Part shown: positions 16,759-22,659 of the stretch, in pieces
Layout: every line of letters begins with the position of its first letter
Numbering within the stretch: position 1 is the first letter of the stretch
Assembly (NCBI RefSeq): GCF_000723165.1
Contig: NZ_HG322949.1
Span: 4,639,711-4,703,710, forward strand
Direction of reading: 5' to 3'
Source of the DNA: Janthinobacterium agaricidamnosum NBRC 102515 = DSM 9628
Lineage (GTDB): Bacteria > Pseudomonadota > Gammaproteobacteria > Burkholderiales > Burkholderiaceae_D
Length of the DNA stretch: 64,000 nt
Translations under genes and position numbers: made by a program
The notes under the pieces: model-generated
What the model was told of the DNA's origin: nothing
Databases searched by the model: none
What the model saw: only the letters and a program-made list of their open reading frames with translations

Positions 16759-17820
16759 TCAGTTCTCGTCCTGCAAACGGCGCTGTTTGACCGCCGCCGC
16801 CAGCGTTTCCAGCACCGCCACGCTGCTTTGCCAATCGATGCAGCCATCGGTGACCGACTGGCCGTACACCAGTTCCTTGCCCGGCACCAGGTCCTGACGT
16901 CCCGCCACCAGGTGCGACTCTACCATCACGCCGACGATGCGGCTGTCGCCGCTCGCCACCTGGGCCGCGATATCGGTGCACACCGGCACCTGGTTTTCCG
17001 GTTTTTTGGAACTGTTGGCGTGCGAAGCGTCGATCATCAGGCGCGCCGCCAGGCCTTGGGCGCCGATCGCCTTGCATGCTTCTTCGACGCTGACCGCGTC
17101 ATAATTCGGCGCCTTGCCGCCGCGTAAGATGATGTGGCAATCTTCGTTGCCGTTGGTCGATACGATCGCCGAGTGGCCGCCCTTGGTGACCGACAGGAAA
17201 TGATGCGGCTGCGACGCGGCCTTGATCGCTTCCACCGCGATCTTGACGTTGCCGTCGGTGCCGTTCTTGAAACCGACCGGACAGGACAAACCGGACGCCA
17301 GTTCGCGGTGCACCTGCGATTCGGTGGTGCGCGCGCCGATCGCGCCCCAGCTGATCAAGTCGGCGATGTATTGCGGACTGATCACGTCGAGGAATTCGGT
17401 GCCGGCCGGCAAGCCCAGTTCGTTGATGTCACGCAGCAATTCGCGCGCCATGCGCAAGCCGTCATTGATGCGGAAACTGTTATCCATGTAGGGATCGTTG
17501 ATCAAGCCTTTCCAGCCCACCGTGGTGCGCGGTTTTTCGAAATACACGCGCATGACGATTTCCAGTTCGCCGGCGAAACGGGCGCGTTCCTTGACCAGCA
17601 GGCGCGCATATTCCATCGCCGCCTTGGTGTCGTGGATCGAGCACGGCCCGATGACGACCATCAGGCGGTCATCCTGGCCGTGCAGGATGCGGTGCAGCGC
17701 GATACGCGCGGCGGCGGCGGTTTGTCCGGCCTGTTCCGAGCACGCGAATTCGCGGATCAGATGCGACGGCGGGGTCAGTTCCTTCATTTCGCGGATGCGC
17801 AGGTCATCGGTGCGTGGCAT
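16759..17820 (-). CDS. aroG: 3-deoxy-7-phosphoheptulonate (DAHP) synthase, class I
   Basis: The first enzyme of the shikimate pathway, joining phosphoenolpyruvate and erythrose 4-phosphate; cytoplasmic and metal-dependent. 353 residues from the ATG at 17820, close to AroG/AroF length; the frame extends to 17847 but TTGGAGAA before the internal ATG decides the start. Family blocks are all visible: VVIGPCSIHD near residue 60, RVYFEKPRTTVGWKGLINDP, GLPAGTEFLDVISPQYIADLISWGAIGARTTESQ, FKNGTDGN and MIDASHANSSKKPENQ. Upstream on the same strand is a leader peptide, alternative pairings and a terminator that together look like a Phe/Tyr attenuator (listed separately). This predicts regulation by charged tRNA-Phe and tRNA-Tyr. 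Which isozyme it is by allostery cannot be read here. Confidence 0.93.
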   Translation of the reverse strand: MPRTDDLRIREMKELTPPSHLIREFACSEQAGQTAAAARIALHRILHGQDDRLMVVIGPCSIHDTKAAMEYARLLVKERARFAGELEIVMRVYFEKPRTTVGWKGLINDPYMDNSFRINDGLRMARELLRDINELGLPAGTEFLDVISPQYIADLISWGAIGARTTESQVHRELASGLSCPVGFKNGTDGNVKIAVEAIKAASQPHHFLSVTKGGHSAIVSTNGNEDCHIILRGGKAPNYDAVSVEEACKAIGAQGLAARLMIDASHANSSKKPENQVPVCTDIAAQVASGDSRIVGVMVESHLVAGRQDLVPGKELVYGQSVTDGCIDWQSSVAVLETLAAAVKQRRLQDEN

Positions 17821-17862
17821 GGTGTTCTCCAAAAAAATTAAGATCAAATAAATCGTCGAGGT

Positions 17863-17893
17863 AAAAAAAAACCGCCATCGCTGGCGGTTTTTT
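17863..17893 (-). terminator. Attenuator terminator upstream of aroG
   Basis: On the minus strand CCGCCA, loop GCGA and TGGCGG form a GC-rich stem followed by nine T residues, extended by an A/T stem. It sits between the leader peptide (17938-18006) and the aroG start (17820), so transcription from the upstream promoter must pass it. Its first arm (17882-17887) can pair instead with GGCGG at the 3' end of the leader reading frame (17946-17950). That gives the mutually exclusive structures of a classical attenuator. Confidence 0.75.
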
Positions 17894-17937
17894 AGAATTT
17901 GCTGGGATCTCGCTATTGCTGCTACGTGAACCGGCCG

Positions 17938-18006
17938 CTACTCCACCGCCTTTGGGTTGGAATTGCTAAAGTAAAAATAGCTGGTAAAAAACGCGGAGCG
18001 TAACAT
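17938..18006 (-). CDS. Candidate aroG leader peptide, rich in Phe and Tyr
   Basis: A 22-codon open frame on the minus strand starting MLRSAFFTSYFYF, so six of residues 6-13 are Phe or Tyr. It ends with TAG 45 bases before the terminator hairpin. Ribosomes stalled on the Phe/Tyr codons would leave GGCGG near the stop codon free to pair with CCGCC of the terminator and let RNA polymerase continue into aroG. Ribosomes reaching the stop would cover GGCGG and allow termination. Upstream is a short GGA-containing site and a promoter about 35 bases away. Phe/Tyr are the end products of the pathway that AroG starts. Too short to be recognised by homology; the call rests on the arrangement. Confidence 0.7.
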   Translation of the reverse strand: MLRSAFFTSYFYFSNSNPKAVE

Positions 18007-18040
18007 GCAGAAAATCCAATAAATGTGTGACTGTTGGATG

Positions 18041-18070
18041 ACTATAACAACAATCGGCCACGCTTGGCAA
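18041..18070 (-). promoter_or_regulatory. Candidate sigma-70 promoter of the aroG leader
   Basis: On the minus strand TTGCCA (18070-18065) and TATAGT (18046-18041) are separated by 18 bases; each differs from consensus at one position. Transcription would begin near 18034, about 28 bases before the leader-peptide ATG. Confidence 0.6.
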
Positions 18071-18073
18071 GCG
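18061..18073. promoter_or_regulatory. Palindrome overlapping the aroG -35 box
   Basis: CGCTTGGCAAGCG has 6-base perfect arms around one G and covers the proposed -35 box of the aroG leader promoter. A repressor bound here would block the promoter. It also lies in the upstream region of the divergent receptor gene. Confidence 0.3.
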
Positions 18074-18192
18074 ATTGTCGCGCGGCACTATGTCGCATGC
18101 CGGCCACAACACCGCTGAAAGACGCGCACCACTGATGCATCTCCAAGGCCGAAAAGGGCAACGGCGAAGACTGGATCGTCTCGCCAACCGAT

Positions 18193-18211
18193 GCGCCGGC
18201 CGCGCCGGCGC
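18193..18211 (+). promoter_or_regulatory. GC-rich hairpin in the leader of the third TBDR
   Basis: GCGCCGGC, loop CGC and GCCGGCGC form an 8-base perfect stem, followed by a run of C and not T. It is 36 bases before the receptor start codon and could influence translation. Confidence 0.3.
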
Positions 18212-18247
18212 CCCCCCGATTGTTAGCTTGTCACCTAGGAGATCGAC

Positions 18248-21103
18248 ATGACTGAAACACTGTTGTCGCGCATGCGTTATACCGTTGCCGGAGCCGGCAT
18301 CCTGCTGGCGCTTCCCGCGCAGGCGCAAGCGCAGGAAGGCAGTCCGCAAGTGGTGCCGCGGGTTGAAATTACCGGCTCCAACATCCGCCGCGCGCAAGCC
18401 GAGACGGCGTCGCCGGTACAAACCCTGAGCGCGGCCGACATCGAAAAATCGGGCAAGACCAGCGTCGCCGAATTACTGCAGACGCTGGCGGTTGATAACC
18501 AGGGTTCGGTACCCAGCAACTTCGGCAACGGTTTTGCCGCCGGCGCGGCCGGCGTGTCGCTGCGCGGGCTGGGCGCCGCGTCGACGCTGGTGCTGCTGAA
18601 CGGCCGCCGGGTCGCGCCGTACGGCCTGGCCGACGATGGCCAGAAAGTGTTTTCCGACCTGAACATCATTCCGCTCGAAGCGGTGGAGCGGGTCGAAATC
18701 CTCAAGGACGGCGCGTCGGCGATCTACGGTTCCGATGCGATCGCCGGCGTGGTCAACGTCATCTTGCGCAAGGATTACCAGGGCACCGCCATCAAGGCCA
18801 GCTACGGCAAGTCGCGCTACCGGGACGGGCGCGATAGCCGGGTGTCGCTGACCCATGGTTTCGGCGACCTCGACAACGACCGCTACAACCTGCTGCTGAA
18901 TCTCGAATACGGCGAAAAACGCGAAATCTGGAACCACGACCGCGACGGCCGCGGCGCGATCGGCCGCGGCGCGATCGGCCGCGCCGACTTGCGCGACCAG
19001 GGTTTCAGCGCCGTCGAGGCGCTCGGCGGCACCGGCGCCATCACCACCAATAACGCGGCCGGCAACGCCATCAACGGCAATGTGCGCAATCCCGCCACCT
19101 TCGATTATTACAACCGCGGCAACCTGGCCGGGACCGGCTTCACGCGCCAGTTTCCCGCCGCGGCCTGCGGCAACTTCACCGGCCACCCGCAAGGCGATCC
19201 GGGCGGCGGCTGCCTGATCGATGCGCAACAAATCTATAGCCAGATCCAGCCGCAACAAAAAACCGTCAACTTCTTCGGCCGCGGCGCGTACCAGATCAAC
19301 CCCGGCCTGCAGACTTATGCCGAACTGAATCTGTACCACAGCGATACGCACTCCGCCACCACGCCGTCGAGCGTCAGCGGCTCGGTCGGTTCGCCGGCTG
19401 GTCCGGTCAGCAATGCCGGCGCGGCGCTGGGCGCGGATCATCCGGACAATCCGTATTTCGGCACGGCGGCGCGGCTGCGCTACCTGGCGGCCGATGTCGG
19501 CCCGCGCGTGTCCGACATCGAATCGACCTTCGTGCGGCTGGTGGCCGGTATCAAGGGCAGCGTGGCCGGATGGGACATCGACAGCGCGCTGCTGTATTCG
19601 CAAAACAAGATCAGCCACGATCAAACCGGCTATTTGCAGCGCAACGTCGCGTTCGCGCTGCTCAATCCGACGCCGGCCAATGTCGCCGCCGCCCAGCTGA
19701 ATCCGGCCTACGCGGCGCTGCCGCCGGGCAGCGTGTGGCGCATCGCCGAAAACGCCGGCCTGAATTCGGCCGCGCTGTATGCCGCGCTGTCGCCGCAACT
19801 GTCGAACGACGCCAGAACCCGCCTGTCGCAAATCGACTTCAAGGCCAGCCGCGAATTGAACCAGTTGCCGGGCGGTGCGCTGGGTCTCGCGCTGGGCGCC
19901 GAATTTCGCCATGAAACCACCGAGCTGGGACCGACGCCAGGCACGGAAACCGGCAACATCATCGGCCTCGGCTACTCCGCCTACAAAGGCAACCGCAACT
20001 CGTCGGCGCTGTATGCGGAATTGCTGGCGCCGGTGCTGAAAACGCTGGAATTGTCGGCCGCGCTGCGCGCCGACCATTTTTCCGATGTCGGCAATTCCTA
20101 CACGCCGAAGATCGGCGCCAAATGGACGCCGCTGCGCGAGCTGGCGCTGCGCACCACTTTCGCCAAGGGTTTCCGCGCGCCCAGCGCGGCGGAAAACGGC
20201 GTCGGCGGACTGGCGGCGTTTTCCACCGCCGCCGATCCGCTGCGCTGCGCACTGGGCGTCGCGGCGGCGTGCGACCCGGCCTCGATCGCGGTGATCACGT
20301 CGCCCAATCCCGCCTTGCAGCCGGAACGTTCGAAAAGCTATTCGGCGGGACTGATCTGGGACCCGCGCCCGCGCAGCAGCGTATCGCTGGATGTGTGGGA
20401 AATCAGGCGCACCAATGAAATCAACCAGGAGCAGACCGACGCCGCGATCGCCGCCGGCCATATCGCGCGCGATCCCAGCACCGCCACCGCCATCCCCGGC
20501 GATCCGGGCGCGATCACGGCGGTGCTGGCCAATTACGTCAATTCGGCCAGCACCAAGGTGCGCGGCGCCGACCTCGATGCGCGCCAGGGCTTTGCGCTGG
20601 GGAACGGATGGGGCAACCTGACCTTCGACCTGAAATGGACCCATCTGTTCAAATGGCTGCGCACCGAACAGGATGGCAGCCAGCGCGACTTTGCCGGCAC
20701 CCACGGCAATTGCGACGTGACCAACTGCATCGGCACGCCGGATGACCGGGTCAACCTCGGCGCGACATGGGAACGCAACGACTGGCGCGTGTCGGCGCTG
20801 GCCAATTACCGGGGTTCGCTCAGCAACACCGCCTTCAAGGATGACCCGGACGGCTGCGCCAGCCATTTTGCCGACGGCAGCGATGCGCCGCGCGGCTGCA
20901 AAATTGCGTCGTTCACCACCATCGACCTGACCTTGCGCTGGAAGGCGGCGCCGCGCATCGAAGTGTTCGGCTCGATCCAGAACCTGTTCGACAAGATCGC
21001 GCCGCTCGATCCGCTGACCTATGGCGCGGTGTCGTACAATCCGCTCGACTACAGCGGCGCGGTGGGGCGTTATTTCAGCGCAGGCATGCGCTACAAGTTT
21101 TAA
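18248..21103 (+). CDS. TonB-dependent outer-membrane receptor (subfamily A)
   Basis: A 951-residue TonB-dependent receptor with AGGAG seven bases before its ATG. The signal peptide ends near ALPAQAQA|QE. Next come the TonB-box-like VPRVEITGSNIRR, a plug with VSLRGLGAASTLVLLNGRRVAPYG and VERVEILKDGASAIYGSDAIAGVVN, and a barrel ending KIAPLDPLTYGAVSYNPLDYSG and MRYKF. It is very similar throughout to the receptor at 35723. A 15-base tandem repeat at 18946-18975 adds a repeated IGRGA unit absent from that relative. Paired cysteines in extracellular-loop regions (CGNF...GGGC, GNCDVTNC) are shared by the subfamily. Ligand unknown; divergent from the aroG leader. Confidence 0.92.
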   Translation: MTETLLSRMRYTVAGAGILLALPAQAQAQEGSPQVVPRVEITGSNIRRAQAETASPVQTLSAADIEKSGKTSVAELLQTLAVDNQGSVPSNFGNGFAAGAAGVSLRGLGAASTLVLLNGRRVAPYGLADDGQKVFSDLNIIPLEAVERVEILKDGASAIYGSDAIAGVVNVILRKDYQGTAIKASYGKSRYRDGRDSRVSLTHGFGDLDNDRYNLLLNLEYGEKREIWNHDRDGRGAIGRGAIGRADLRDQGFSAVEALGGTGAITTNNAAGNAINGNVRNPATFDYYNRGNLAGTGFTRQFPAAACGNFTGHPQGDPGGGCLIDAQQIYSQIQPQQKTVNFFGRGAYQINPGLQTYAELNLYHSDTHSATTPSSVSGSVGSPAGPVSNAGAALGADHPDNPYFGTAARLRYLAADVGPRVSDIESTFVRLVAGIKGSVAGWDIDSALLYSQNKISHDQTGYLQRNVAFALLNPTPANVAAAQLNPAYAALPPGSVWRIAENAGLNSAALYAALSPQLSNDARTRLSQIDFKASRELNQLPGGALGLALGAEFRHETTELGPTPGTETGNIIGLGYSAYKGNRNSSALYAELLAPVLKTLELSAALRADHFSDVGNSYTPKIGAKWTPLRELALRTTFAKGFRAPSAAENGVGGLAAFSTAADPLRCALGVAAACDPASIAVITSPNPALQPERSKSYSAGLIWDPRPRSSVSLDVWEIRRTNEINQEQTDAAIAAGHIARDPSTATAIPGDPGAITAVLANYVNSASTKVRGADLDARQGFALGNGWGNLTFDLKWTHLFKWLRTEQDGSQRDFAGTHGNCDVTNCIGTPDDRVNLGATWERNDWRVSALANYRGSLSNTAFKDDPDGCASHFADGSDAPRGCKIASFTTIDLTLRWKAAPRIEVFGSIQNLFDKIAPLDPLTYGAVSYNPLDYSGAVGRYFSAGMRYKF
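18946..18983 (+). repeat. 15-base tandem repeat within the third TBDR
   Basis: The unit CGGCCGCGGCGCGAT occurs twice head to tail (18946-18960, 18961-18975) and a third partial copy follows. It is in frame and adds five residues per unit, probably through slippage, in an early barrel loop. Confidence 0.85.
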
Positions 21104-21168: not shown

Positions 21169-22659
21169 TTACGCGGTGCCGCCGACCGTCACGCCATCGA
21201 TGCGCAGCGTCGGCTGGCCGACGCCGACCGGCACGCTCTGGCCTTCCTTGCCGCACACGCCGACGCCGGAATCGAGGCGCATGTCGTTGCCGATCATCGA
21301 GACCCGGTTCAATACATCGGGACCGTTGCCGATCAGCGTAGCGCCCTTGACCGGATAGGTGATCTTGCCGTCTTCGATCATATACGCTTCGCTGGCCGAG
21401 AACACGAACTTGCCGTTGGTGATATCGACCTGGCCGCCGCCGAAATTGACCGCGTACAGACCGTTCTTGACCGACGCGAGAATTTCACCCGGATCCTTAT
21501 CGCCGCCCAGCATATAGGTGTTGGTCATGCGCGGCATCGGCAAGTGGGCAAACGATTCACGGCGCGCATTGCCGGTGACCGGCATTTTCATCAGACGCGC
21601 ATTCATCGTATCCTGGATATAGCCTTTCAGGATGCCGTCCTCGATCAGCGTGGTGCACTGGGTCGGATTGCCTTCGTCATCCATGTTCAGCGAACCGCGG
21701 CGGTCGGCCAGCGTGCCGTCGTCGACCACGGTGACGCCCTTGGCGGCCACGCGCTGGCCAATCTGGCCGGAAAACGCCGACGAACCCTTGCGGTTGAAAT
21801 CGCCTTCCAGGCCATGGCCGATCGCTTCGTGCAGCAGGATGCCGGGCCAGCCCGGCCCCAGCACGATGGTCATCGGACCGGCCGGCGCCGGACGCGCATC
21901 GAGGTTGACGATGGCCGAATTGACCGCGTCGGTGGCGTATTGCTCCAGCAGCGCGTCGTCGAAATACGCATAGCTGTAACGCCCGCCGCCGCCGGACGAG
22001 CCCATTTCGCGGCGTCCGTTCTGCTCGGCGATGACGGTCACCGACAGGCGCACCAGCGGCCGGATGTCGGCCGCCAGCACGCCGTCGCTGCGCACCACCA
22101 GCACCACGTCGTATTCGCCGGCCAGGCCAGCCATCACTTGCACCACGCGCGTATCCTTGGCGCGGGCGATTTTTTCTACCCGTTCCAGCAACTTGACCTT
22201 GGCGGTGGCATCCAGCGACGTCAGCGGATCGTTCGGCAAATACAGCGCACGGCCGCCCTGCTGCGTCATGCTGGACGCGACCTTGATCTTGCCGGCGCCG
22301 GCGCGCGCGATGGTACGCGTGGCGGCCGCCGCTTCCAGCAAGGCGCGTTCGGAAATGTCATCGGAATACGAAAAAGCCGTCTTGTCGCCGGACACGGCGC
22401 GCACGCCGACGCCCTGGTCGATCGAAAAACTGCCGGTCTTGACGATGCCCTCTTCCAGGCTCCAGCCCTCGTTCTTGGTGAACTGGAAGTACAGGTCGGC
22501 GTAATCGACCTTGTGGGTAAACATGCTGCCAAGCGCTTTCAGCAGCTTGTCTTCATCCAGCCCGAACGGCGTCAGCAAGATGTCGCGCGCCACGGCCAGC
22601 GTTGAGAGATTGGGTTCGAATGGAATCATGATCCTGTCTTTTTTATCGGTTAATGCCAT
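21169..22659 (-). CDS. tldD: Metalloprotease TldD
   Basis: TldD of the TldD/TldE (PmbA) pair, a zinc-dependent protease that degrades unfolded peptides and helps process peptide products such as microcin B17 and control CcdA. 496 residues, E. coli length being 481. Landmarks: VDYADLYFQ, GSFSIDQGVGVRAVSG, the metal-site motif HEAIGHGLEGD (HExxxH) and the C-terminal glycine-rich region. A second ATG at 22629 has AGGA upstream and may be the real start; it would give 486 residues. It is the last gene of the minus-strand set yhdP - amidase - tldD, a conserved neighbourhood in beta- and gammaproteobacteria. The partner pmbA is not in the window. Confidence 0.95.
   Translation of the reverse strand: MALTDKKDRIMIPFEPNLSTLAVARDILLTPFGLDEDKLLKALGSMFTHKVDYADLYFQFTKNEGWSLEEGIVKTGSFSIDQGVGVRAVSGDKTAFSYSDDISERALLEAAAATRTIARAGAGKIKVASSMTQQGGRALYLPNDPLTSLDATAKVKLLERVEKIARAKDTRVVQVMAGLAGEYDVVLVVRSDGVLAADIRPLVRLSVTVIAEQNGRREMGSSGGGGRYSYAYFDDALLEQYATDAVNSAIVNLDARPAPAGPMTIVLGPGWPGILLHEAIGHGLEGDFNRKGSSAFSGQIGQRVAAKGVTVVDDGTLADRRGSLNMDDEGNPTQCTTLIEDGILKGYIQDTMNARLMKMPVTGNARRESFAHLPMPRMTNTYMLGGDKDPGEILASVKNGLYAVNFGGGQVDITNGKFVFSASEAYMIEDGKITYPVKGATLIGNGPDVLNRVSMIGNDMRLDSGVGVCGKEGQSVPVGVGQPTLRIDGVTVGGTA

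Follow-up and report, generated by a model that had tools for sequence, protein, structure and literature searches.

DAHP synthase catalyses the first step towards the aromatic amino acids and forms the entry to the shikimate pathway. For one of its genes, in the actinobacterium C. glutamicum, an attenuator (aroR-aroF) was reportedly described by Neshat et al. in 2014. The leader aroR with its Phe-Tyr-Phe codons precedes aroF (PMC11802643, PMC4046766), and the available text describes a ribosome-mediated attenuator that responds to Phe, Tyr being without effect (PMC11802643). The leader in front of aroG that we describe here likewise has Phe-Tyr-Phe codons before a DAHP synthase gene and would likewise act through ribosome-mediated attenuation, but compared with the available description of aroR its aromatic run is longer, is found in many families of one order outside the actinobacteria and sometimes includes Trp, whereas a Phe-only response has been reported for C. 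glutamicum. A second precedent is the uORFC-13-1 motif, a predicted Phe-coding uORF upstream of Acholeplasma aroF (PMC8632094). It too has at least one Phe codon and adjoins a terminator before a DAHP synthase gene, but in the part of that paper available to us it comprises 24 sequences from one genus and environmental DNA and is described with a different base-paired substructure. PMC11802643 also treats the E. coli leaders pheL (of pheA), pheST and trpL. Control codons, mutually exclusive pairings and a terminator make up their working principle as they do that of the aroG leader, but the genes they regulate are others. Among proteobacteria, Table 7 of PMC1173090 gives predicted attenuators, taken from a prediction site, before Vibrio operons led by DAHP synthase and containing tyrA; a leader peptide is not described in the accessible part of that paper. 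The original prediction for the present locus had called ribosome-mediated attenuation of a DAHP synthase gene by both Phe and Tyr a less described mode of control, a statement to be qualified in view of the C. glutamicum and Acholeplasma precedents. Among the papers listed from the open-licence literature we found no report of such an attenuator in a beta-proteobacterium, although one may already be in print. Within Rfam 15, no family exceeded its threshold in the window (the whole 64-kb stretch of DNA that was analysed), and the Phe_leader family RF01859 reached 20.5 bits (E 0.34), below its cut-off of 55. The kind of attenuator is known, and the aroG leader is best read as a well supported, widely distributed and classical member of it.

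Anatomy of the aroG leader region

The gene that would be regulated, aroG (16762–17820, minus strand), encodes a class I (AroG-type) DAHP synthase: its product scores above the cut-off of the NCBIfam AroG equivalog NF006723 (582.4 bits, cut-off 568), matches PF00793 and has Phe-regulated or Phe-sensitive DAHP synthases among its top PDB matches. The host genome measures 5.95 Mb, and the nearest named relatives of aroG among the matches listed belong to Janthinobacterium. On the minus strand a promoter-like pair (18070–18041), a leader frame (18006–17938), a terminator (17893–17863) and the aroG ATG (17820) follow each other in this order. The original prediction had named a TTGCCA-18-TATAGT pair, a 22-codon frame containing FFTSYFYF and a terminator with a nine-T tail ahead of the ATG, and all three were confirmed. 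The sigma-70-like promoter (18041–18070, minus strand) consists of TTGCCA at 18070–18065, a spacer of 18 nt and TATAGT at 18046–18041; with 10 of 12 matches it is the sole site in a promoter scan of 17800–18250 (mean of shuffles 0.3), and the same scan gave no second promoter-like site between the terminator and the aroG ATG. Transcription would start near 18034. A loose promoter pattern also lies upstream of 50 of the 77 named leaders introduced below.

The leader peptide frame (17938–18006, minus strand) runs from an ATG at 18006 to a UAG stop at 17938 and encodes 22 codons, MLRSAFFTSYFYFSNSNPKAVE, so that a short frame rich in codons for the end products Phe and Tyr precedes the gene. Its control codons F6 F7 T8 S9 Y10 F11 Y12 F13 occupy 17968–17991 (minus strand). 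The Shine-Dalgarno sequence is weak, an SD-like trinucleotide being present in 53 of the 77 named leaders. Downstream of the control codons the transcript can fold into a 1:2 hairpin (17937–17966, minus strand; arms 17966–17954 and 17949–17937; −10.4 kcal/mol), which has the UAG stop inside and would compete with the antiterminator. The 5' arm of the latter, region 2 (17940–17950, minus strand), reads GGCGGU plus GGAGU, its GGCGG at 17950–17946 lying within the last leader codons. Region 3 (17882–17898, minus strand; AUUCU...ACCGCC(A)) serves both as the 3' arm of the antiterminator and as the 5' arm of the intrinsic terminator (17863–17893, minus strand), AAAAAACCGCCA-GCGA-TGGCGG followed by nine T, which folds at −16.8 kcal/mol (ViennaRNA) between the leader frame and aroG. 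A simple terminator scan of 17800–18250 lists no terminator, in our reading because pairing through the A/T tracts consumes the T run. The 172-nt leader RNA has a z-score of −2.73 against 200 shuffles.

This layout is more than chance. Over both strands of the window there are two ORFs of at most 45 codons with at least six F, Y or W in nine codons, and only the aroG leader has a terminator within 130 nt. When the 350-nt upstream region was simulated 4000 times with a first-order Markov model, such an ORF arose in 112 cases and an ORF together with a terminator in a single one.

In the window, a TonB-dependent receptor gene (18248–21103, plus strand) sits between tldD (21169–22659, minus strand) and aroG; it contains a 15-base perfect tandem duplication at 18950–18979 (protein GRGAIGRGAIGRADL). 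At two other loci, L024 and that of genome G013 (L250), the end of a tldD-like gene lies directly before aroG, and the leader was not seen at either.

Conservation in the family and distribution in the order

The alignment of relatives called for in the original prediction was carried out on a named set, the best 80 of 589 confirmed aroG loci, and our own finder recovered leader and terminator at 77 of these orthologous loci; the misses are L024 and L062, where the leader was not seen, and L079 (Candidatus Burkholderia humilis), which has a differing leader frame. Sixty-seven of the 77 leaders are of the type found in the window. All 67 contain Phe-(Ser/Cys) ahead of region 2, and its last occurrence there served as the anchor, so that the Phe at this codon is given by the choice of anchor. 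The codon preceding the anchor Phe encodes Tyr in 59 leaders, written as both TAC and TAT, Trp in seven leaders of Massilia/Telluria type and His in one; Phe stands two codons before the anchor in 63 of the 67 and six codons before it in 61. Non-aromatic residues are kept as well, namely Ser behind the last Phe in 66 of the 67, Ala in 64 and Pro in 57. TTT makes up 76% of the Phe codons in the leaders versus 19% in the aroG genes. The remaining ten leaders, from Paraburkholderia, Caballeronia and Burkholderia sp., have the form FYFYFFW(H/Y)L(K/R)PLADREG.

A covariance model (R1), built on 54 sequences of less than 90% identity from the same family and from Burkholderia relatives, has matches in 139 of 145 family genomes, in most of them a single one, and the count of genomes includes four with a best E above 1e-4 and possibly some training-set species. 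Matches in the own family and in the Burkholderia relatives are expected by construction, because the model was trained on them. In the 21 matches compared with aroG positions, the match lies at most 55 nt upstream of the gene. Second matches in a genome did not reveal other genes under the same leader. In G094, G047 and G032 they are terminators that no aromatic-rich leader precedes (at best 2, 3 and 4 aromatic residues in nine), that in G027 is the opposite strand of its own leader and that in G122 a leader at a contig end. The one in G139 (L245, G139:C1:1347-1491) lies in front of an additional copy of aroG, into which its leader frame continues without a stop.

Across the order, 87 of 110 genomes have a match, and upstream regions were taken for 100 of the listed matches, 78 in the AroG group (at least 58% identity) and 22 in a paralogous group. 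At 22 of the 78 AroG loci, and not at the other 56, an ATG leader with at least four aromatic residues in nine is combined with a complementary region 2 and a downstream terminator. These 22 loci span 11 families (f3, f4, f8, f9, f10, f11, f18, f21, f38, f42 and f48) besides f1, that of the window. Their peptides differ and the layout is the same, with a region 2 that is complementary to the terminator arm and lies 5–14 nt past the last aromatic codon. Trp occurs within the aromatic run in 12 of the 22, and two runs contain Phe alone (FFFGFF in L120, FFFTF in L163). At one further locus, L179, there are a leader and a model match, and our own finder gave no terminator. R1 itself matches 53 of 250 genomes of the order, and its weak matches in f5, f14, f28 and f40 were left out of the family count. 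In the 22 upstream regions of the paralogue class (about 50% identity) no such leader was found; L212 of this class, which the automatic filter had let through, lacks a CCGCC arm and was removed by hand. Outside the order, one of 60 loci of the class qualifies (L259). At two other loci outside the order, L300 and L303, DAHP synthase genes are preceded by uORFs with the endings FYYYFS and FYFYYYFSA and, by our own finder, no terminator; these are possibly another type of aromatic control. By eye, the presence of Trp in the leader showed no relation to how many DAHP synthases there are.

Exclusive pairings and the position of the ribosome

According to the original prediction, GGCGG at the end of the leader frame and the first arm of the terminator would allow mutually exclusive pairings, and this was borne out in the 54 non-redundant sequences. 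The share of paired cells is 98% in the GGCGG/CCGCC helix, which hardly varies within the family, and 68.7% in its extension in the antiterminator. The seven outer pairs of the terminator are formed in all cells; the 1:2 hairpin reaches 86.7%, and three of its pairs show a change on both sides. For both structures the paired cells and the covariation score lie above all 500 shuffles. Further pair types did not exceed the shuffles (337/500 and 457/500), nor did antiterminator pairs changed on both sides (473/500). RNAalifold, run on the alignment, predicted the terminator only and neither the 1:2 hairpin nor the antiterminator, which is perhaps to be expected of mutually exclusive structures. 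Pairing of regions 2 and 3 was also compared after exchange of partners between leaders. In the 22 order-wide leaders the own duplex reached −20.6 kcal/mol versus −18.3 kcal/mol when swapped, and in 38 leaders −18.9 versus −17.0 kcal/mol; in either set 0 of 5000 permutations was as good. In 29 of the 38 leaders, no other upstream 40-mer does as well as region 2. The rank of the own partner lies anywhere from 1 to 38 of 38, and the preference for it is therefore an average effect. In the window, the antiterminator (GGCGGU/ACCGCC plus extension) excludes the terminator, as is characteristic of attenuators.

The influence of the ribosome was modelled by barring the nucleotides under it from pairing. 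The edge of this mask lay 15 nt from the P site, and the folded transcript extended as far as region 3. This could be done for 97 of 100 leaders, three being without exact motifs. Without a ribosome the antiterminator had a median probability of 0.01; it was 1.00 when the last aromatic codon occupied the A site and 0.00 for a ribosome at the stop. A ribosome on the final aromatic codon let the antiterminator form in 96 of 97 leaders, the remaining one not being evaluable, and a ribosome at the stop codon prevented it in all 97, an outcome nearly built in because the mask there covers region 2. A stall thus frees region 2 in the folding model, and the stop position covers it. For the leader of the window the probability was 0.29 without a ribosome, 0.93–0.94 at codons 2–5, 0.21–0.22 at codons 6–10, 0.97–1.00 at codons 11–15, 0.79 at codon 16, 0.06 at codon 17 and 0 from codon 18 onward; the codons effective in control are thus likely F11, Y12 and F13. 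Averaged over all leaders, the probability was 0.98–0.99 at the final two codons of the run and 0.72–0.79 farther upstream, so at equilibrium the 1:2 hairpin is not everywhere a strong competitor and in many leaders a weak one; even without a ribosome the antiterminator formed in 10 of 97 leaders. Mask edges of 13 and 17 nt gave the same shape of profile. Aromatic codons make up 578 of 929 antitermination-permitting codons versus 83 of 718 others. An equilibrium model of this kind supports the stall state well and informs little on the untranslated state.

The attenuator interpretation of the original prediction passed its own refutation test, since leader codons and alternative pairing are conserved in relatives, and is supported by these results. 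It is very probable, judging from sequence and folding model, that aroG is controlled by a ribosome-mediated transcription attenuator of the trpL/pheL type. With ample Phe-tRNA and Tyr-tRNA, the ribosome would reach the UAG at 17938 and cover region 2, region 3 would form the terminator and transcription would end near 17863. When charged Phe- or Tyr-tRNA is scarce, the ribosome would stall on codons 11–13 (F-Y-F) and cover the 5' arm of the 1:2 hairpin; the freed GGCGGU(GGAGU) would then pair with (AUUCU)ACCGCC, the terminator would be blocked and aroG transcribed.

Amino acids sensed and control of aromatic synthesis

Sensing of Tyr besides Phe is suggested by the codons. The attenuator might instead sense Phe only, the Tyr codons being passengers of a U/A-rich run. 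For C. glutamicum aroR this has been reported, aroF being unaffected by Tyr availability despite Phe-Tyr-Phe (PMC11802643, as far as the available text goes), and the Phe-only runs of L120 and L163 would fit as well. We nevertheless consider it rather unlikely here, given that Tyr or Trp stands before the last Phe in 66 of 67 leaders with exchange of TAC and TAT, that seven leaders have TGG, two base changes away from TAC, and that the folding model gives a probability of 1.00 for a stall at codon 12. A very improbable reading is that the leader peptide or the terminated RNA works in trans, like the published trans-acting peTrpL of Sinorhizobium (PMC7298713, seen in part), attenuation being secondary: the peptide is indeed kept beyond its aromatic codons (Ser, Pro and Ala, as above), but the conserved non-aromatic codons overlap arms of the RNA hairpins, and other families retain the RNA layout with different peptides. 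That the hairpin merely ends a different transcript, with the ORF arising incidentally, is hardly credible, for although its symmetry suffices for termination in both directions, the adjoining upstream gene (18248–21103, plus strand) is divergent, the next minus-strand gene upstream, tldD, ends 3 kb off, and leader and terminator recur jointly at the loci of relatives.

With attenuation by both Phe and Tyr as the preferred reading, we tentatively propose, at somewhat less than even confidence, that the leader acts as an OR gate, in which a shortage of either Tyr (or Trp) or Phe opens the entry to the shikimate pathway and which lineages retune by exchange of single codons, as from Tyr to Trp in the seven leaders of Massilia/Telluria type or with FYFYFFW in the ten of Burkholderia type. 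Such behaviour would arise because the last control codons put Tyr (or Trp) and Phe side by side.

The host genome seems to have a separate Trp attenuator before trpE: upstream of a trpE-like gene (L254, G000:C1:5061929, plus strand) lies a Trp-rich leader, MFPNEKHNVNQTGSIEAWLWRRWQSWAK, that ends in a stop and has an inverted repeat and a run of T behind it. Upstream of its two paralogous DAHP synthases (L002, L003) and of pheA (L253) no aromatic-rich leader was found over the 699–753 nt scanned, with at best 2, 2 and 3 aromatic residues in nine, and a search of the genome for a class II DAHP synthase gave no match. According to the accessible part of PMC5343134, many gamma-proteobacteria have kept TrpR and TyrR, which other classes lack. 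In 30 family genomes searched, TrpR was not found over the cut-off, and PF18024 exceeded its cut-off in eight, the host genome included (28.0 versus 27 bits). Presumably PF18024 is not specific for TyrR, so these matches do not settle its presence.

The aroG leader adds a conserved regulatory element that is without a match over threshold in Rfam 15, and the natural exchange of Tyr and Trp at one codon makes the sensing of several amino acids by a single leader directly testable. The attenuator reading predicts control of the entry to aromatic amino acid synthesis in many members of a large bacterial order; if the OR-gate proposal is true, RNA would serve in much of this order as repression by TyrR and TrpR does in enterics.
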